A stretch of 64,000 nucleotides of DNA from Bacteroidota bacterium. GTDB lineage: Bacteria > Bacteroidota > Bacteroidia > UKL13-3. The notes below the pieces were generated by a model, which saw only the letters and a list, made by a program, of their open reading frames with translations, had not been told where the DNA came from and made no database searches. Location of the stretch: the NCBI GenBank assembly GCA_947477885.1, contig CANJUD010000002.1, positions 1 to 64,000 on the forward strand, written 5' to 3'. Shown one piece after another: positions 13,514 through 49,129 of this stretch. Each line of letters opens with the position of its first letter. The stretch's first letter is position 1. A program made the position numbers and the translations under genes.

Positions 13514-13672
13514 ATGTATATGGTAGATGGGGAAGTGAGGTCACATTTTTTGCACAACCGAATACGGGAATCAGGATTCAAGGGAAGACGCATCATTTAT
13601 CATTCATCATTAACCATTAACCATTTATAATTGACTATTTATAATTGACTAGAATATCAGATATTTGCAGCA
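13514..13672. repeat. Intergenic repeat words between divergent genes
   Basis: No gene. It contains ACGGGAATCAGGATTCAAG (about 13563-13581; a similar word, inverted, is at about 57536-57555), then ATCATTTATCATTCATCATTAACC and ATTAACCATTTATAATTGAC-type tandem words (13596-13650). Related ATTAACCATT words recur near 30400 and 49080. The divergent genes' promoters must lie in or near these words. Confidence 0.7.
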
Positions 13673-14326
13673 GTGCTAAAGCAAACACAAATACTATTGA
13701 AACACTTGTTGCTGAATGAATGGCGACAATTATATGCAGTGATGGCTTTGCTATTGCAGGTAGTGAGCAGTATTTTTGTGCTATACCTTGCCGCCAAATT
13801 TTTGGACAAACCAACTTGGAATGCAGTGTATTGGGTGCTCCTACTTTTTCTTTCAGTTAATGCAGTAGGTAGAAGTTTTATACAAGAACCCAAAGGCAGA
13901 TTGATGTATTATTATCAACTCTGTTCCCCATCCTCTATTATTATTTCCCGAATTATATATAATACTTTAATCACTTTATTTATAGCTTTATTGAGCTTGT
14001 TTTTATATAGTGTGTGGATGGGCAACCCTGTTGAGAAAATGGGACTTTATACAATGGTAATTTGTTTGGCTGCTATTGGTTATTCATCAGTTCTCACCTT
14101 AATGTCGGCAATCTCATCGCATTCAGGAAATAGCTACATTATCATGCCAGTATTGAGTTTCCCTGTTATTATACCTCTGCTTAATTTATCGGTACACGCT
14201 GCTAAGCAAGCGATGGATGGGATTGATAGTTCCCTGATTTACCAAAACATCATATACCTCGGTTGCCTTGATTTAATTATTTTCGGGATGGCTTATATAC
14301 TTTTTCCGTATTTGTGGAAGGATTAA
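13673..14326 (+). CDS. ccmB: Heme exporter membrane subunit CcmB
   Basis: 217 aa with six hydrophobic segments, the CcmB size. The N-terminus LLKHLLLNEWRQLYAVMALLLQVVSSIFVLYLA and the block AVGRSFIQEPKGRLMYYYQLCSPSSIIISRIIYNT correspond to the CcmB pattern (F..E...G.L..Y...SP..I...K...N). CcmB works with the ATPase CcmA and with CcmC in moving heme to CcmE for cytochrome c maturation. A GTG start is used; no in-frame ATG is near the N-terminus. It is separated from ccmCDEF (38.5 kb region) and no ccmA is in the window. A 14-bp repeat array begins 4 nt after the stop. Confidence 0.88.
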   Translation: MLKQTQILLKHLLLNEWRQLYAVMALLLQVVSSIFVLYLAAKFLDKPTWNAVYWVLLLFLSVNAVGRSFIQEPKGRLMYYYQLCSPSSIIISRIIYNTLITLFIALLSLFLYSVWMGNPVEKMGLYTMVICLAAIGYSSVLTLMSAISSHSGNSYIIMPVLSFPVIIPLLNLSVHAAKQAMDGIDSSLIYQNIIYLGCLDLIIFGMAYILFPYLWKD

Positions 14327-14329
14327 AAT

Positions 14330-14794
14330 AGTAATCAGTAGTTAGTAATCAGTAGTTAGTAATCAGTAGACAGTAATCAGTAGACAGTAATCAGTAGACA
14401 GTAATCAGTAGACAGTAATCAGTAGACAGTAATCAGTAGACAGTAATCAGTAGACAGTAATCAGTAGTTAGTAAACAGTAGTTAGTAATCAGTAGTTAGT
14501 AAACAGTAGTTAGTAATCAGTAGACAGTAATCAGTAGACAGTAATCAGTAGTTAGTAATCAGTAGACAGTAATCAGTAGACAGTAATCAGTAGACAGTAA
14601 TCAGTAGACAGTAATCAGTAGACAGTAATCAGTAGACAGTAATCAGTAGACAGTAATCAGTAGACAGTAATCAGTAGACAGTAATCAGTAGTTAGTAATC
14701 AGTAGTTAGTAAACAGTAGTTAGTAAACAGTAGTTAGTAAACAGTAGTTAGTAATCAGTAGTTAGTAATCAGTAGTTAGTAATCAGTAGTTAGT
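14330..14794. repeat. Minisatellite: 32 perfect-length copies of a 14-bp unit
   Basis: From 14341 to 14788 there are 32 full 14-mers in strict register, with partial units at both ends. Three unit types occur: GACAGTAATCAGTA (18 copies), GTTAGTAATCAGTA (9) and GTTAGTAAACAGTA (5). They are arranged in blocks, e.g. seven GAC units in a row, nine in a row, and three GTTAGTAAACAGTA in a row. This pattern indicates slippage or unequal exchange. The array ends at TTAGT immediately before GCCATTCGGC (14795-14804). No frame stays open through it. Confidence 0.97.
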
Positions 14795-14893
14795 GCCATT
14801 CGGCAGAAAACAGATAACCTTATAGTGGTTGGTCACCAGACACAATGACAGGCAGACAATAGATAAGAAGTGCGGACGGCTGTGCGAACTTAA

Positions 14894-14918
14894 TACTGAC
14901 TACTGTTTACTAACTACT
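14894..14918. repeat. Inverted copy of the minisatellite word at the end of the BamA-like gene
   Basis: Reads as the reverse complement of the AGTAGTTAGTAAACAGTAG word family and overlaps the TAG stop of the BamA-like gene (14917-14919). Together with 14330-14804 it gives the layout direct array, GCCATTCGGC, inverted copy, which is also seen at 21892-22010. Confidence 0.88.
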
Positions 14919-17292
14919 AGAAAGGGTATCCAATTCCAAAATTAATATTGGTTGCTTTATATACAGATTTCATATCGGCATAATTATGGTAAACCCATCT
15001 TTCGCCAGCTATTTTGCTAGGGTTTCGCATGGGCACGGCCCCATCTACCCGTATTATAAAGAAATTAAAATTGAAACGTAGGCCTATTCCTGCATCTAAG
15101 GCAAAACCTTCTCGGAAATTTTTCAACCCACTTTTCCCAATAATATTAGCACCAATAAAATTGGGATTATATTGTAGGAACCATATATTTCCAAAATCAG
15201 TAAAAATAGCAGACTCAAGAGAATTGCCAGCAAACTTAAAAACACGGAAACGGTATTCAAGATTTCCTTCCAGTTTCATATCGCCAGTCCTATTAATGGT
15301 ATTACTAGTATCATCAAAAGTGCCAGGGCCAAGGGTTCTAATTTGCCAACCACGCAAACTAATTGCTCCACCACTAAAATATCTTTTTTCGTAAGGAAGT
15401 GAAGTTTCGCCAAAAGTTGGAATTCCAATTCCTCCATTCAAACGCATCACCAATAATCTGTTTTTGGAAATTTGTATATAATGTCTCACATCCAAATCAG
15501 TTTTTATATAGGAGAAATAGCGAGACCCCAATAATTTCAATACCCCATTTACAGGTGGATTCCCCATCACAGGCAAAACCAGTCTTCCCATATTGCCCGA
15601 TGTTTCTACATTCCAACGTCTGTTGGTCCACGAACGTCCCATATGTATACTTTGATTTGAATAAGATCGAGAATACCGAACTGCGGTAATTAAGTTTTGA
15701 CCAAAAAGATTTTTTACCAACTGACCTTGAGGAGTTTTTAGATAAGTATCAAGTTTGGTACTTAAATTACTCGTTAAAATATAACTTGCTTCAAAGGGTA
15801 CAAAAGTATTATTTTTAAGAGGGTTCTTTTTGCTTCGCCAATTATAACTCCAGTTCAACACAAATAATCGTCTATCGAAATCGCGGTTGGTTTCCCAAAT
15901 AACAGAAGCAGAATAACTAGTGCGGTTTAGCAAACTATTACTAGGTTTTAAAATCTTTGCAAATCCTTTTGATATGCGCAGTCCAGGAAAATCGAACGAT
16001 GCATTTAAACTGTTTTCTATACTATAATAATTATTATTACCTTGCGATTTACTTAGTTGGTATTCGGAAGAGTTGCGAAAACGCAGTCGGAAGATATCTC
16101 CACGTTTTAACAAATTATTATTAGTATATTTTATTGAATTTACAATACCGTAATTCCTATAAGTTCCTATAACGTTTGTAGTACTCGATTGGTCGGCAAT
16201 GGTAAGTTGGGGTTCATATATAATACTTTGCTTTACCAATGGCATAATTTTAATGGTGCAGTTCAGTATATTATAATTCGTATCGGGTATATCGAATTTG
16301 ATATTGATAAATTTGAATAACTGCAACTGTACCAATTCCGAATAAGTATAACCCACACTATCTATTCTATATAAATCACCGGGTCTAAAATTAATTGTTC
16401 TGGCTAGCACATCCTTAAGCATTGCATATCCATTCCTTTTAAATAGAATACCATCGTATGTTTTTTCCAAATCCACCAAGCGTTTGGTACCAGCAGTATC
16501 GCACTCAAGCAATATTTTGCCAATTGTAAATATTTTGTGAATTCCACTTTCAGGCGATTTAAATAATATAGTCACTTTAAGTTTGTTGCTTGAATCATCT
16601 ACTATATAATTTATATAATCGCTGCTAAAATTATAATACCCATTATTTTTATATAAATTGACAATACGTAGTCTTTCGTTTACAAACTTAAGATTTGAAA
16701 ATGGTTCCCCTACTTTGATAAATGAGTTTTTGATACCTTCACAATATATAGGAGCAATTGCAGAATCTTCGAAAACATAGCGAAGCGTATCTATGATATG
16801 CTGTTGCCCCAAAAATACATGGTAAATAACGGAGGTGTACTTAAAAATTGTTTTGTGTGTATAGCTTACATTGGCATTGAAATATCCATTGTTAAATAAA
16901 TATTGTTTGATAGAAGAAACCGAACTCTCAGCTGATGTAGAGTCATAAATTACCGGAGGCTCTCCCACGGTGCTGGTTAGCCACCTGCTAATTTTATTGT
17001 CGTGCTTAAAGCTTATACCAAGCCTGTACATGGACAAATGAAACTTAAAAGTGCCCAAAATTTTGCGATTAGGCTTTTGTTTAATATTCAATTTAATTCC
17101 CTCTTCCAAATTATTGTCTTTCACTTTCACATGATTAGCATCTAAAAGCGTTTGGTTTTCTTTCAGCATTCTGTGCAACCTGCAAGAAGAGGTGGAAATA
17201 AGAACAAAAACAGCGAATATTGCCCCAATAAAAAGCCTATAACGAAAATGCTTTCCCGCAACGAAATTTTGTTTATCAAAGAATTGCACCAT
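14917..17292 (-). CDS. BamA/TamA-family outer membrane assembly protein
   Basis: 791 aa from the ATG at 17292. A hydrophobic leader ends in ISTSSC, a plausible lipobox as often seen in Bacteroidota TamA-like proteins. POTRA-like segments occupy about 60-340 (e.g. VSSIKQYLFNNGYFNANVSY; RTINFRPGDLYRIDSVGYTYSELVQLQLFKFINIKFDI). The C-terminal Omp85 barrel carries FSGGAISLRGWQIRTLGPGTF, the region equivalent to the VRGF/Y loop, and ends GIGYPF with a terminal aromatic. The likely role is insertion or export of outer membrane proteins or lipids. Its 5' end overlaps the start of the divergent methyltransferase gene by about 45 bp. Confidence 0.85.
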   Translation of the reverse strand: MVQFFDKQNFVAGKHFRYRLFIGAIFAVFVLISTSSCRLHRMLKENQTLLDANHVKVKDNNLEEGIKLNIKQKPNRKILGTFKFHLSMYRLGISFKHDNKISRWLTSTVGEPPVIYDSTSAESSVSSIKQYLFNNGYFNANVSYTHKTIFKYTSVIYHVFLGQQHIIDTLRYVFEDSAIAPIYCEGIKNSFIKVGEPFSNLKFVNERLRIVNLYKNNGYYNFSSDYINYIVDDSSNKLKVTILFKSPESGIHKIFTIGKILLECDTAGTKRLVDLEKTYDGILFKRNGYAMLKDVLARTINFRPGDLYRIDSVGYTYSELVQLQLFKFINIKFDIPDTNYNILNCTIKIMPLVKQSIIYEPQLTIADQSSTTNVIGTYRNYGIVNSIKYTNNNLLKRGDIFRLRFRNSSEYQLSKSQGNNNYYSIENSLNASFDFPGLRISKGFAKILKPSNSLLNRTSYSASVIWETNRDFDRRLFVLNWSYNWRSKKNPLKNNTFVPFEASYILTSNLSTKLDTYLKTPQGQLVKNLFGQNLITAVRYSRSYSNQSIHMGRSWTNRRWNVETSGNMGRLVLPVMGNPPVNGVLKLLGSRYFSYIKTDLDVRHYIQISKNRLLVMRLNGGIGIPTFGETSLPYEKRYFSGGAISLRGWQIRTLGPGTFDDTSNTINRTGDMKLEGNLEYRFRVFKFAGNSLESAIFTDFGNIWFLQYNPNFIGANIIGKSGLKNFREGFALDAGIGLRFNFNFFIIRVDGAVPMRNPSKIAGERWVYHNYADMKSVYKATNINFGIGYPF

Positions 17293-18042
17293 AAAAAAGG
17301 TCGTTCGGAACAACTGCTGTTTGTAGTTGAGGGCAGTAAGTCGGTGTCCGAACTTTTGGGTTCAAAATTAGGGGTAAAAAAATTATTCTCACTGCCTAAG
17401 TGGCTGGCCGAAAATCAAAAATTGGTCCAAAGGGTGGAAGAAGTGCACACCATCTCGGAAAAAGACTTGGAAAGAATCTCTCAGCATAAGACACCACAGG
17501 AAGTTTTGGCCTTGGCTGAACTGCCCGATTATAAGTTGGAGCAGCTGTGGTTCGACTCCGCTCACCACGACTCCGCTCACCACGACTCCGCTCACCACGA
17601 CTCCGCTCACCGCGGCATTACCCTCATGCTCGATGGAATACAAGACCCTGGAAATCTGGGCACCATTATTCGCACCGCCGATTGGTATGGTGTGCAGAAT
17701 ATTATATGCTCGCCCACCACAGCCGATTGTTTCCAACACAAAGTGGTGCAAGCATGCATGGGCTCACTATTTCGCACAGCAATATATTATACTGATTTAA
17801 AATCTTATCTCGCCAAACACAAACCTTATATAATAGGTGCGGTGCTCGATGGGCAAAATGCGAACGAAGCAAAATTCCCGAAAGATGGATGCTTATTAAT
17901 TGGCAGCGAAGGAAAAGGAATCTCCGATGAGTTGCTTCCATATATCAATCTCAAAGTTTCTATACCGAGGATTGGGAAAGCGGAGAGTTTGAATGCGGGG
18001 ATTGCTACTGCAATTTTATTAGATAGGCTTGCAGGAAGATAA
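17248..18042 (+). CDS. SpoU/TrmH-family rRNA 2'-O-methyltransferase with an in-frame repeat insertion
   Basis: 264 aa from the ATG at 17248 (MLSRNEILFIKEL...). The N-terminal substrate-binding domain (about 1-95) has the VVEGSKSVSELL pattern. The SPOUT domain carries motif 1 LMLDGIQDPGNLGTIIRTADW, motif 2 IGSEGKGISDELL and motif 3 SIPRIGKAESLNAGIATAILL, so the knot and SAM site are intact. Between the two domains lies (DSAHH)3-DSAHR, encoded by four 15-bp repeats, which is not a family feature. It methylates a ribose 2'-OH, probably in 23S rRNA; the exact nucleotide is unknown. Confidence 0.9.
   Translation: MLSRNEILFIKELHHKKGRSEQLLFVVEGSKSVSELLGSKLGVKKLFSLPKWLAENQKLVQRVEEVHTISEKDLERISQHKTPQEVLALAELPDYKLEQLWFDSAHHDSAHHDSAHHDSAHRGITLMLDGIQDPGNLGTIIRTADWYGVQNIICSPTTADCFQHKVVQACMGSLFRTAIYYTDLKSYLAKHKPYIIGAVLDGQNANEAKFPKDGCLLIGSEGKGISDELLPYINLKVSIPRIGKAESLNAGIATAILLDRLAGR
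17554..17613 (+). repeat. Four 15-bp in-frame repeats inside the methyltransferase gene
   Basis: GACTCCGCTCACCAC three times, then GACTCCGCTCACCGC. The same word occurs between genes (AACTCCGCTCACCACAAC at about 23889-23906). The repeat length is a multiple of three, so the frame is kept and DSAHH blocks are added to the interdomain linker. Confidence 0.96.
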
Positions 18043-21891: not shown

Positions 21892-22010
21892 AGTAAACAG
21901 TAATCAGTAGTCAGTAATCAGTAGTCAGTAGTCAGTAATCAGTAGTCAGTAAACAGTAGTCAGTGCCATTCGGCGTCAGCACTGATTACTGACTACTGTT
22001 TACTGACTAC
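21892..22010. repeat. Word array with GCCATTCGGC and an inverted copy (23-bp perfect stem)
   Basis: Direct words of the AGTAATCAGTAGTC type run from 21892 to 21964 and end at GCCATTCGGC (21965-21974). The inverted words follow at about 21981-22013. The segments 21942-21964 and 21988-22010 are exact reverse complements (23 bp) with a 23-nt spacer. The stem ends at the stop of the NtrC-like gene (22011). It could form a strong RNA hairpin acting as a terminator for the regulator gene. Confidence 0.95.
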
Positions 22011-23384
22011 TTAATCTAAATCAGCACGACTAAGTCTGTACCGATCTATTTTATTATATAAGTGACTACGTTGTATATCTATTTCTTGGGCGGTGCGGGC
22101 TACGTTCCAGCCGTTCTTTTTTAGTTTTTCTTCGATGAATTTTTTCTCTACAAAGTCTTTAAAATCTTGAAGTGTATCGAACATTTCATATACCGTTGGC
22201 TTTTTACTTTCATCAATTTTTGAATGGGCAGGGTTGGCATACATCTGCACATCGGTATCCGTAATTTTTGCACCACTTAGGATTACAAGTCTTTCAATTA
22301 CATTTCTAAGTTCACGGATATTTCCAGTCCATTTTATTTTTTTCAGTTCTTGCAAAGCTGGCGGTGTAAAACTTTTTTTGCTCATGCCTATATCTTCACA
22401 AATCTCAATCAAAAATTTCTCAGATATTAAAGGTATATCATCAATACGTTCATTTAAAGTGGGAACATGAATTAATATAACACTGAGCCTATGATATAAG
22501 TCCATTCTAAAATTGCCCATGTCAATCTCTTTGATTAAATCTTTATTGGTTGCGGCAACTACTCTCACATCTACTGAGAAATCTTTATCGCCACCAACTC
22601 TGGTAATTTTATTTTCTTGCAAGGCTCTCAATACTTTTGCTTGAGCAGACAAACTCATATCGCCAATCTCATCCAAAAACAAAGTACCTCCAGTAGCTTG
22701 TTCAAATTTCCCAATCTTCTGTTTATAAGCTGATGTGAAGGAACCTTTCTCATGTCCGAACAATTCGCTTTCAATTAATTCTGATGGGATAGCTGCACAG
22801 TTTACTTCTATCATAGGTCCGTTGCTGCGGTTGCTTTGTTCGTGTATCCAGCGTGCAACGAGTTCTTTTCCTGTTCCATTTTCGCCGGTGATAAGTACAC
22901 GTGCATCTGTGGGTGCAACTTTTGCGATTGTATCTTTTATTTTTTTAACACCCAGAGTATCTCCAATTATTTCGCGGGTTTTAGTAACTTTACGTTTTAA
23001 AACTTTGGTTTCAATTACCAGAATATTTTTATCGCAAGCATTACGAACAGTAACAACTAATTGATTAAGATCTGGTGGTTTTTGAAGGAAGGCATAGGCA
23101 CCTTGCTTGGTAGCTTCCACAGCAGTTTCAATACTTCCGTGGCCGGATATCATAATGATAGGAACTTCCTCCTCGAGCATTTTCATTTTACTCAAAAATT
23201 CCATGCCATCCACCTTTGGCATTTTGATATCGCAGAGAATTGCATCATAACTATTCTCTTTTACCATATCCAAAGCTTTTTGTCCGTCTTCGGCCTCTTC
23301 CACTTTGTGGCCTTCGTATTCCAGTATCTCTTTAAGTGTGGAGCGGATTACTTTCTCGTCGTCAACTACAAGTATTCGTGACAT
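22011..23384 (-). CDS. Sigma-54-dependent response regulator, NtrC family
   Basis: 457 aa. The receiver domain (1-120) starts ILVVDDEKVIRSTL and has the phosphoacceptor Asp in AILCDIKMPKVDG (about 52). The AAA+ domain (about 135-375) has Walker A GENGTGKE, Walker B GGTLFLDEIGDM and the sigma-54 contact loop as GSFTSA instead of the canonical GAFTGA. A Fis-type helix-turn-helix ends the protein (ARTAQEIDIQRSHLYNKIDRYRL). It presumably opens sigma-54 promoters after phosphorylation. No sensor kinase gene lies nearby, so the signal is unknown. A repeat hairpin follows directly after the stop. Confidence 0.95.
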   Translation of the reverse strand: MSRILVVDDEKVIRSTLKEILEYEGHKVEEAEDGQKALDMVKENSYDAILCDIKMPKVDGMEFLSKMKMLEEEVPIIMISGHGSIETAVEATKQGAYAFLQKPPDLNQLVVTVRNACDKNILVIETKVLKRKVTKTREIIGDTLGVKKIKDTIAKVAPTDARVLITGENGTGKELVARWIHEQSNRSNGPMIEVNCAAIPSELIESELFGHEKGSFTSAYKQKIGKFEQATGGTLFLDEIGDMSLSAQAKVLRALQENKITRVGGDKDFSVDVRVVAATNKDLIKEIDMGNFRMDLYHRLSVILIHVPTLNERIDDIPLISEKFLIEICEDIGMSKKSFTPPALQELKKIKWTGNIRELRNVIERLVILSGAKITDTDVQMYANPAHSKIDESKKPTVYEMFDTLQDFKDFVEKKFIEEKLKKNGWNVARTAQEIDIQRSHLYNKIDRYRLSRADLD

Positions 23385-23547: not shown

Positions 23548-23727
23548 ATGAAAAAAATAATCACATTGGCTCTTGCCATTTTATTTGTTTTTGCTTCAAT
23601 GCAAATGCAAGCTCAAAAAACTCCAAGACCTCACCACCCAAAAGGAACACATCACAAAACTGTGAAAAAGAAAGTGGTGAAAAAACACGTTGAGAAAAAG
23701 CCACCTGTGGAGAAGAAGAAACTTTAG
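23548..23727 (+). CDS. Small exported basic protein, unknown
   Basis: 59 aa. It begins MKKIITLALAILFVFASMQMQAQ, a clear signal peptide. The mature part is about 36 residues of Lys/His/Pro (PRPHHPKGTHHKTVKKKVV and a second PPVEKKKL end). It is low-complexity and strongly basic, so it may bind anionic surface polymers or nucleic acid; this is inference. An A-rich leader with AAAAATCTATTCCTAAACATT precedes the ATG, and a hairpin repeat starts within 10 nt of the stop, which supports a real gene unit. Confidence 0.72.
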   Translation: MKKIITLALAILFVFASMQMQAQKTPRPHHPKGTHHKTVKKKVVKKHVEKKPPVEKKKL

Positions 23728-23815
23728 TACTCCATTGTGGTTGGTGAAAACACCAACCACAGGCATTAAACTTTAGTACTCCGGTTGTGGTTGGCGACAA
23801 CGCCAAACCACAGGC
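23719..23815. repeat. Tandem pair of hairpin repeats (GTGGTTGG family)
   Basis: Two similar ~48-bp units, each beginning ACTTTAGTACTCC (23721 and 23770). The first forms a perfect 11-bp stem, TGTGGTTGGTG (23736-23746) with CACCAACCACA (23751-23761), and an AAAA loop. The second has TGTGGTTGGCG and CGCCAAACCACA with one mismatch. The first unit overlaps the end of the small basic protein gene. A further degenerate copy with TTCAACTCCGCTCACCAC follows at about 23869-23917, and another family member is at about 59336-59369. Confidence 0.93.
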
Positions 23816-23924
23816 ATGGTACTATGTTGCAAACCACTCAAACAATTGGATGGTTTTTTTTGTGCTACGTTGTGGTTGGTGATGGTTCAACTCCGCTCAC
23901 CACAACAACCACAGGCAGTGTGTA

Positions 23925-32387: not shown

Positions 32388-33707
32388 ATGATGCAAAAAA
32401 TAAACATCCATTGGTTCAGAAGAGATTTAAGATTGCAAGACAATGCAGCACTTTACCATGCATTAAAAAGTAGCAAGCCTGTATTATGTGTATTTATTTT
32501 CGACAAAACCATATTAGACAAATTAGAAAACAAATATGATAAACGTGTAGATTTCATTCATCAAACTATTATACAATTAAAAAAAGAATTAGAAGAGAAA
32601 GGTTCATCATTGCTAATTAAATATAATACTGCTGAAGGAGCATGGAAAGAAATTACGGATGAATATGATATAGCTAAAGTATTTACCAACCACGATTATG
32701 AACCTGCTGCTATTGAGCGTGAAAAAAGTATTGAAACATTGCTGAAAACGAAAAACATTGCTTTCCATACCTATAAAGACCAAGTAATATTTGAGAAAGA
32801 CGAGGTAGTAAAAGACGATGGAACACCTTATACCGTTTTTACACCTTACAGCAAAAAATGGAAAGCATGCTTCGACTTCGCTCAGCATTCCAATTTTTAT
32901 ACAATATCTTATCCGAATGAAAAATATGATACCAACTATTATCATATAACGCCACTAAAAAATATAATTTTATCAGAAATCGGATTTGAGAAAACTGATA
33001 TGATAGTTCCACCCAAAAGTGTTACCTCTGGATTAATAAAAAACTATGCTGATACCCGTGACATCCCAAGCATTTTAGGCACTTCCCGATTGGGAATTCA
33101 TTTGCGTTTTGGTACTATTTCTATCCGCGAAAAAGTGGCGAAGGCTTTAACACTTTCAGAAACATTTCTAAATGAATTGATATGGCGTGAATTTTATATG
33201 CAAATACTATATCATTTTCCGCATGTGGTGAAAAATAGTTTTAGAGAAAAGTATAACAATATAAAATGGATTAATAATGAAGAACAATTCGCTCGCTGGT
33301 GCAAGGGGCAAACGGGCTACCCGATTGTAGATGCAGGTATGCGAGAACTCAATGCAATAGGCTATATGCATAACAGAGTACGTATGATAACTGCATCCTT
33401 TCTCACCAAACATTTATTAATAGACTGGCGATGGGGTGAATGGTACTTTGCTCAGAAATTATTGGATTATGAACTTGCCTCAAACAATGGAGGCTGGCAA
33501 TGGGCCGCGGGTTGCGGTACTGATGCTGCTCCATATTTCAGAATATTTAATCCCTATTTGCAAACAGAAAAATTCGATAAAGATAATATATATATTAAAA
33601 AGTGGGTGCCTGAATATTTATCTGATGAATATCCGAAGCCTATTGTAGAGCATGATTTTGCGAGGAAGCGATGTTTGGAAGTATATAAAAAGGGAATCGG
33701 GAATTGA
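32388..33707 (+). CDS. phr: Deoxyribodipyrimidine photolyase (cryptochrome/photolyase family)
   Basis: 439 aa. An N-terminal Rossmann antenna domain begins INIHWFRRDLRLQDNAAL. The FAD domain carries TSRLGIHLRFGTISIRE, LNELIWREFYMQILYHFPHV, WCKGQTGYPIVDAGMRELNAIGYMHNRVRMITASFLTKHL and ASNNGGWQWAAGCGTDAAPYFRIFNP (quoted in parts). The core Trp and FAD-binding residues are intact, suggesting an active class I CPD photolyase. A repeat-derived in-frame segment (CFDFAQHS, about residues 162-169) interrupts the linker after SKKWKA. It could also be a cryptochrome. Confidence 0.93.
   Translation: MMQKINIHWFRRDLRLQDNAALYHALKSSKPVLCVFIFDKTILDKLENKYDKRVDFIHQTIIQLKKELEEKGSSLLIKYNTAEGAWKEITDEYDIAKVFTNHDYEPAAIEREKSIETLLKTKNIAFHTYKDQVIFEKDEVVKDDGTPYTVFTPYSKKWKACFDFAQHSNFYTISYPNEKYDTNYYHITPLKNIILSEIGFEKTDMIVPPKSVTSGLIKNYADTRDIPSILGTSRLGIHLRFGTISIREKVAKALTLSETFLNELIWREFYMQILYHFPHVVKNSFREKYNNIKWINNEEQFARWCKGQTGYPIVDAGMRELNAIGYMHNRVRMITASFLTKHLLIDWRWGEWYFAQKLLDYELASNNGGWQWAAGCGTDAAPYFRIFNPYLQTEKFDKDNIYIKKWVPEYLSDEYPKPIVEHDFARKRCLEVYKKGIGN
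32865..32888 (+). repeat. Intergenic repeat word lodged in frame in the photolyase gene
   Basis: This 24-nt segment, starting GCATGCTTCGACTTC, is an exact reverse complement of 33753-33776 in the non-coding DNA downstream of the same gene. It is translated as ACFDFAQH. The TTCGACTTCGCTCAG core belongs to the same class as the words at 27366, 50242 and in the methyltransferase gene. Confidence 0.95.
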
Positions 33708-33948
33708 TTTACGATTTACGATTTACGATTTTTGCTGACGCCTGAGGTTGCTATGCTGAGCGAAGTCGAAGCATGCTAACGCCTGATTTTTTCAACCATT
33801 AAGAAGTTAAGGATATTAAGGTTTTTTCTTAATGTATCTTAATTCCTTAATGGTTCAAATGCTGCACATCTATTAATAATATTATAATCTCCTAAAAATC
33901 ACCTATCTTTGCAGCAATAAATTATTATAGAACAATTAGAAAGAATAC
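33708..33948. repeat. Intergenic repeat cluster: AATCGTAAAT words, TTCGAC word, inverted repeat
   Basis: Contains GATTTACGATTTACGATTTACGATTTTT (33711-33733; inverted family member at 59391-59411), CTGACGCCTGA (33736-33746), the exact inverse of the photolyase insert (33753-33776), CTAACGCCTGA, and an inverted repeat AACCATTAAG (33794-33803) with CTTAATGGTT (33846-33855). The last may serve as a terminator. The TATCTTTG box for the helicase gene follows at 33904. Confidence 0.9.
33904..33911 (+). promoter_or_regulatory. -7 element TATCTTTG before the helicase gene
   Basis: TATCTTTG fits TAnnTTTG, 38 nt before the ATG at 33949, leaving a leader of about 30 nt. No -33 TTTG is found at the ideal spacing. 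Confidence 0.55.
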
Positions 33949-49007: not shown

Positions 49008-49129
49008 AATTGAGGTGCGAAATTAAGGGAAAATGGTATCAATTAGCGAGCATCAGGGATCAAGTATTTCAGGCGTCAGCCATTAACCATTTGTTATGCT
49101 AAGCGTAGTCGAAGCAAACCATTCATCAC

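Follow-up and report, generated by a model that had tools for sequence, protein, structure and literature searches.

What kind of sequence is the long tandem array that starts at position 14330 of the window (the whole 64,000-nucleotide stretch of DNA analysed), and what does it share with a second, unrelated locus near 21892 that carries the same ten-base word? The array begins 4 bases past the stop codon of a CcmB-like gene (13673–14326). TRF returned a period of 14 with 32.9 copies and 95% matches over 14330–14789, in line with the 32-unit, 14-bp array originally noted. The array is present, but its true unit is 7 bp and not 14 bp. When read by eye, it resolves into head-to-tail heptads, which are mostly CAGTAAT and CAGTAGA, with CAGTAGT/TAGTAGT and CAGTAAA also found. 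The order originally described downstream of the array was recovered (Table 1): GCCATTCGGC is separated by approximately 90 bp of unlike sequence from an inverted copy that ends on a stop codon, and the final 3 bases of the inverted arm are the TAG stop codon of a minus-strand Omp85-family ORF (14917–17313).

The second locus is flanked on one side by the stop of a sigma-54 response regulator gene and on the other by the start of an accA-like gene; both genes are encoded on the minus strand. As had been proposed, it repeats the layout of the first locus, with direct words, GCCATTCGGC (21965–21974), and inverted words that touch a stop codon, here that of a minus-strand ORF (22011–23384). Both loci do carry the ten-base word, but the real shared word is longer, since the complete core, GCCATTCGGCGTCAGC, is found at the second locus and at many others. 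At the first locus, the GTCAGC half of the core is missing and other sequence has been inserted in its place. The GCGAAC-type sequence in this interior, as judged by eye, is common to the elements at C2:89212 and C2:100880.

Table 1. Core-bearing elements and half elements in the window.
Feature	Positions	Strand	Description
Expanded left arm	14330–14794	+	~66 direct heptads CAGTNNN/TAGTNNN; higher-order 14-bp unit AGTAATCAGTAGAC
Core left half GCCATTCGGC	14795–14804	+	3-bp stem GCC/GGC, loop ATTC; seen in folds
Interior replacing GTCAGC	14805–14894	+	GATAAC-type heptads, then nested dispersed module (TGGTTGGTCACCAGACACAATGACAGGCA), then GCGAAC-type sequence (by eye)
Inverted arm	14895–14919	-	~3.5 heptads; ends on Omp85-family ORF stop TAG
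Left arm, second element	21892–21964	+	~10 direct heptads
Complete core GCCATTCGGCGTCAGC	21965–21980	+	
Inverted arm, second element	21981–22011	-	4 heptads; adjoins stop codon of ORF 22011–23384
Half element	33706–33742	-	GGCGTCAGC (33734–33742, minus strand), then AAATCGT heptads
Half element	49050–49120	+	GGCGTCAGC at 49072–49080, then CATTAACCATT words

A dispersed family with a fixed architecture

Both loci belong to one family, in which over 100 short, hairpin-shaped repeats are scattered between genes. A genome-wide search (3.1 Mb) found 33 copies of GCCATTCGGC against 1 of the reversed word, and 113 copies of the extended core half GGCGTCAGC against 6 for its control. CAGTAATCAGTAGTCAGTA, with up to 2 mismatches, was found 448 times against 0 for its control, and CAGT-heptad palindromes 57 times against 0. 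The word is thus neither at random frequency nor lacking in further copies, which bears out the suggestion of a dispersed non-coding element common to unrelated loci. Across the whole 344-kb contig, 50 segments were detected at lag 7, compared with 0–5 at lags 4–6, 8–11, and 13, and up to 11 at lags 12 and 15; lags 14 and 21 are multiples of lag 7. Statistics for the family are based on one full contig and on stretches around core copies. Heptad tracts are common in Bacteroidia, and these could in principle be ordinary low-complexity tandem repeats in which the ten-base word is coincidental. We regard this as extremely improbable, and it is refuted by the copy numbers above and by the junctions between core and heptads, the core being joined directly to at least six unrelated heptad families.

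The copies that were read follow one rule: direct heptads, GCC, a loop, GGC, GTCAGC, 0–3 bases, and inverted heptads. The loop is ATTC, ATGC, ATAC or a longer nested palindrome. Four CAGTNNN heptads, a 16-nt core (GCC-ATTC-GGC-GTCAGC), and four inverted heptads make up the standard unit. Under a strict parse of 25 core-bearing CAGT elements, exactly four words were counted in 19 left arms and 15 right arms; the unit is therefore approximately 80 bp long, and the array at 14330 is an outlier. It is one arm that has been locally expanded. Single long arms with higher-order periods also occur at C3:184830 (79 words) and C4:224827 (30 words), beside the 66 words at 14330, and the direct-word section can thus expand, as was originally envisaged. 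Many copies of GGCGTCAGC are half elements, with an arm on a single side.

Other repeats are nested within the elements, namely CCCGATAG palindromes within the core loop and other dispersed modules within the interior at 14805–14894. The GCC/GGC stem is retained where the loop has been swapped for TCCCGATAG.TATCGGGA-type palindromes. At L084, L094, L101, L133, and other loci, the palindrome TCCCGATAGNTATCGGGA is found in place of the core loop, with GCC and GGCGTCAGC retained; it is a second dispersed palindrome nested in the core-bearing one. We also observed core-bearing elements tandemly copied as larger units at C2:100880–101115 (L015) and C6:11819–12139 (L129), with repeats of 113 bp x 3 and 78 bp.

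Word families and agreement between arms

The same core carries further word families, including AAGGAGT, TTAATGG, ATCGTAA, and CCCGAAT. A recognisable heptad family directly follows GGCGTCAGC in 75 of the 99 copies examined (CAGT 32, ATCGT 21, TTAAT 11, AAGG 6, CCGAAT 3, and GAAGT 2), and lag-7 identity downstream of GGCGTCAGC is 0.63, compared with 0.27 at random places. Terminal inverted repeats of the kind expected of a MITE are present: of 31 elements with two classifiable arms, 27 have inverted arms drawn from a single word family, compared with a mean of 18.3 and a maximum of 23 over 2000 permutations. Hybrid elements exist as well. In L124, for example, the left arm is AAGG-like and the right arm is CAGT, while the congener G001 has AAGG on both sides.

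On balance, and with modest confidence, we favour a small dispersed repeat that is palindromic and non-autonomous, with slippage and template switching as the processes that alter its arms. The unit may have spread only rarely, as a small hairpin element; this dispersal we infer, and the machinery for it was not found. Once in place, the direct heptads would change in word number through replication slippage, and this would have produced the array of 66 words. Switching of the nascent strand from one inverted arm to the other as template (quasipalindrome correction) would keep both arms in one word family and would also allow register shifts. Against slippage and template switching, the predicted word-by-word mirroring of the arms is weak, being only slightly above chance in oriented elements (best-offset p = 0.047; p = 0.024 at offset +1, among seven offsets), and a test in which arms were swapped was negative (folding energy -41.6 observed and -42.0 ± 0.9 swapped). 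Neither is a small, discrete word alphabet obviously expected from slippage and point mutation. Among 799 words, AGT accounts for 37%, GGT for 21%, AAT for 16%, AAA for 15%, and AGA for 5%, the first four together making up 89%.

Predicted RNA hairpins and placement at gene ends

Folding of the RNA of both elements, which had been proposed as a check, gave strong predicted hairpins (21892–22010: -47.9 kcal/mol, z = -8.8; 14739–14919: z = -5.1), and the GCC-N4-GGC stem appears in the predicted folds. Swapped arms fold as well as true pairs, and selection for an exact match between the arms was rejected on this basis. No Rfam family was matched at gathering score, and the sub-threshold matches to microRNA models were rejected as chance on a low-complexity hairpin.

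The elements occupy short intergenic gaps close to the ends of genes and usually adjoin or provide a stop codon. Of the 52 gene 3′ ends that face an element, approximately 40 overlap it or are no more than 10 nt away, and the stop codon often falls within the first or second word. The surrounding genes are co-directional in 38 cases, convergent in 6, and divergent in 2, as counted from simple longest-ORF calls in which some elements appear twice through overlapping parses. Judged by eye, the arms are not followed by the T run of an intrinsic terminator, and most elements are inside co-directional gene pairs.

Such placement could reflect functional RNA hairpins. In this reading, the palindromes act in the transcript, where they would protect, pause or separate messages at the ends of genes, and selection for pairing would hold the arms to one word family. 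The strength of the hairpins at both window loci would fit this, as would the avoidance of divergent promoter gaps, the position on stop codons, and the retention of stems at orthologous sites despite differing sequence. We nonetheless find it doubtful, given that true arm pairs fold no better than swapped ones, that a partner arm is lacking in long one-sided arrays and in many half elements, that the whole element at 21892–22010 is absent from the orthologous gap in the congener G002, and that no Rfam family is matched. We see the placement chiefly as a sign that insertions are tolerated where genes end, and a cellular function is not needed to explain it.

Comparison with congeners and wider relatives

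The genome of the window (G000) and its congeners G001 and G002 contain 113, 95, and 53 copies of GGCGTCAGC, respectively (controls 6, 5, and 6), while the 16 other genomes of the family that were searched are at background, with 0–6 copies. Judging from these counts, the element in its present form is probably confined to one genus, the only one enriched within the family. Farther afield, CAGTNNN-type heptad tracts are present in 14 of 40 relatives. Within the class, 9 of 295 genomes contain CAGT palindromes, but their centres are different. A 7.2-Mb genome from another family of the class (G024) has 103 copies of GGCGTCAGC against 15 for the control, counted as words alone, and enrichment may therefore extend beyond the genus. 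This genome also contains 362 CAGTNNN four-anchor matches with an alphabet of its own (GGG, TTG, ATG, and TGG), and inverted arms around unrelated centres. A scan of named genomes returned three matches in the distant taxa Phyllobacterium, Chloroflexia, and Paraburkholderia, which are probably due to chance.

Coding flanks are approximately 75–86% identical between G000 and G002. The clean absence at 21892 in G002 shows either a gain or a loss, and the sequence beside the element is too diverged at the empty site for a target-site duplication to be read. The G002 gap orthologous to the long array contains a different small palindrome (TAAAAGT words and GCTGACGC) in the opposite orientation. 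Using one genome per species, we compared 13 orthologous gaps in which both species have a recognisable core, a non-random sample gathered via earlier searches. By eye, orientation is the same in 12 of the 13. A change of word family affects at least one arm in 7 of these gaps, including 5 where it affects both. At locus 125914, for instance, GGCGTCAGC is surrounded by CAGT arms in G000 and by AAGG arms in G002. Of eight core loci taken from G001, four are orthologous to sampled G000 core loci, and comparison of G001 with G000 gave AAGG against CAGT at L049/L134, TTAGTC against CAGT at L055/L125, one switched arm at L053/L124, and the same family at L047/L064.

These comparisons qualify the idea of a mobile or copied element. 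The dispersed copies and the lack of the 21892 element in G002 agree with it, but most comparable elements are at orthologous places, with core and orientation kept and words changed, which implies that movement of elements is no more frequent than the rewriting of arms in place. One account of this pattern is that the core is inherited in place and a templated process rewrites both arms together to another heptad family, with four words per arm fixed. We give this account a fairly low probability. If true, it would amount to concerted rewriting of DNA, dependent on inverted repeats and proceeding in seven-base steps.

Changed words could also result from independent insertions, in which complete elements of differing word families repeatedly enter the same tolerant gaps and replace each other. 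Elements fill nearly the whole gap, some of them are nested or hybrid, and genes offer only a limited number of such gaps at their ends, all of which would suit such replacement, as would the one orthologous pair of opposite orientation (window 14330 and its G002 counterpart). The shared orientation of the other 12 pairs (one-sided binomial 0.0017) is not predicted, however, unless insertion is strongly oriented, and we think independent insertion unlikely.

Search for mobilising enzymes

The transposon-type genes sought were Y1 and RVT_1, and no transposase could be tied to the element. Four Y1_Tnp (RAYT-like) genes are present in the genome (L040–L043; G000 C8:147413, C6:86249, C10:84756, and C5:9301). 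Each has its own distinct palindromic repeat alongside (CCGTCGGTTGAAACCGACGG, CCCCGAAGGGGTGACA, CCCACGATTGAAATCGTGGG, and CGTTCTTCAAGAACGG, the fourth also given as CGTTCTTCAAGAACGGTGAC), making four separate REP/RAYT-like pairs in one genome. The present core flanks none of the four. No PF01797 (Y1_Tnp) match was detected in G002, a genome that is 96% complete and contains 53 copies of GGCGTCAGC against 6 for the control. Similarly, no PF00078 (RVT_1) match was detected in G000 or G002, and an origin of the words through reverse transcriptase or diversity generation was ruled out.

REPINs of the REPIN/RAYT system are dispersed, intergenic, palindromic elements (Bertels and Rainey, 2011; PMC3116915). 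The present element resembles them in these respects and in its similarly small size, but has no cognate RAYT and, in G002, occurs without any detected Y1 gene. A REP/REPIN-like repeat mobilised by a Y1 (RAYT) transposase, with cleavage at the GCC-ATTC-GGC hairpin, would account for a small, imperfect, dispersed, and intergenic hairpin in a genome with four Y1_Tnp genes. It is nevertheless very unlikely, as these genes carry other repeats and never the present core; RAYT mobilisation was rejected on the flanks of all four Y1 genes, together with G002.

Relation to known repeats

Elhai and co-workers reportedly described, in Genome Research in 2008, small dispersed repeats (SDRs) embedded in heptamers in Nostoc punctiforme. 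Both the Nostoc SDRs and the present element are very short, dispersed, and hairpin-forming, are often found within tandem heptamers, show nested insertions, are limited to one lineage, and have no transposase tied to them. SDR-like features observed here are the abutment of GGCGTCAGC on a heptad tract (75 of 99), the GCC-N4-GGC hairpin, and the nested repeats. Unlike the Nostoc SDRs, the present core centres a palindrome of fixed 4+4 heptads and is common to several unrelated heptad families, and from one species to another it stays in position and in orientation as the arms change; the phylum and the sequence are also different. In its features, the Nostoc SDR would be the nearest kind, and the present element does not appear to be a member of a named family. 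In the heptanucleotide STRRs of cyanobacteria, including that of the tRNA-Leu(UAA) intron hairpin, paired heptads flank a hairpin and copy number varies among strains. The STRR of the tRNA-Leu(UAA) intron is, however, a single intron locus without a dispersed 16-nt core, whereas the present element is dispersed. SDRs are also mentioned in the REPIN literature (PMC3116915).

A literature search for heptamer repeats led to MacGregor (2015; PMC4679880) only, and a search by sequence, among the papers listed, to unrelated ones only. Direct repeats of the heptamer TAACTGA are found between genes in Beggiatoaceae, cyanobacteria, and five Bacteroidetes; some of the Bacteroidetes and cyanobacteria have long arrays that reach 43 copies (MacGregor, 2015). 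The arrays differ in length in 7-nt steps, have strain-specific histories, and are read as start-codon-proximal regulator sites (MacGregor, 2015). They are intergenic 7-mer direct repeats, as are the 66 heptads at 14330–14794 with their lag-7 excess, but involve one word, with a single inverted repeat listed, and have neither a conserved core nor a palindromic unit (MacGregor, 2015). Intergenic heptamer repeats, widespread among Bacteroidia and cyanobacteria, have no accepted origin. In the one genus described here, they occur in more than 100 copies, with a fixed 4-core-4 architecture and interchangeable word families on one core. With these features, and with orthologous sites at which the words have changed, the origin and spread of heptad repeats become testable by comparison of close strains.

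Other repeats in the window

Heptads of the types ATCATTT and CATTAAC lie immediately 5′ of the start of the CcmB-like gene (13592–13651) and are largely absent in G002. Between 17553 and 17611, CGACTCCGCTCACCA forms approximately 4 in-frame repeats within a SpoU-type methyltransferase ORF (17152–18042) and is missing in G002. It matches the dispersed module TTCGACTCCGCTCACCA found between genes, and it seems that an intergenic repeat entered the coding sequence and expanded there. At 23719–23817, a dispersed module of the GTGGTTGGCGAAAACACCAAACCACAGGCA type is present in two copies of 50 bp.
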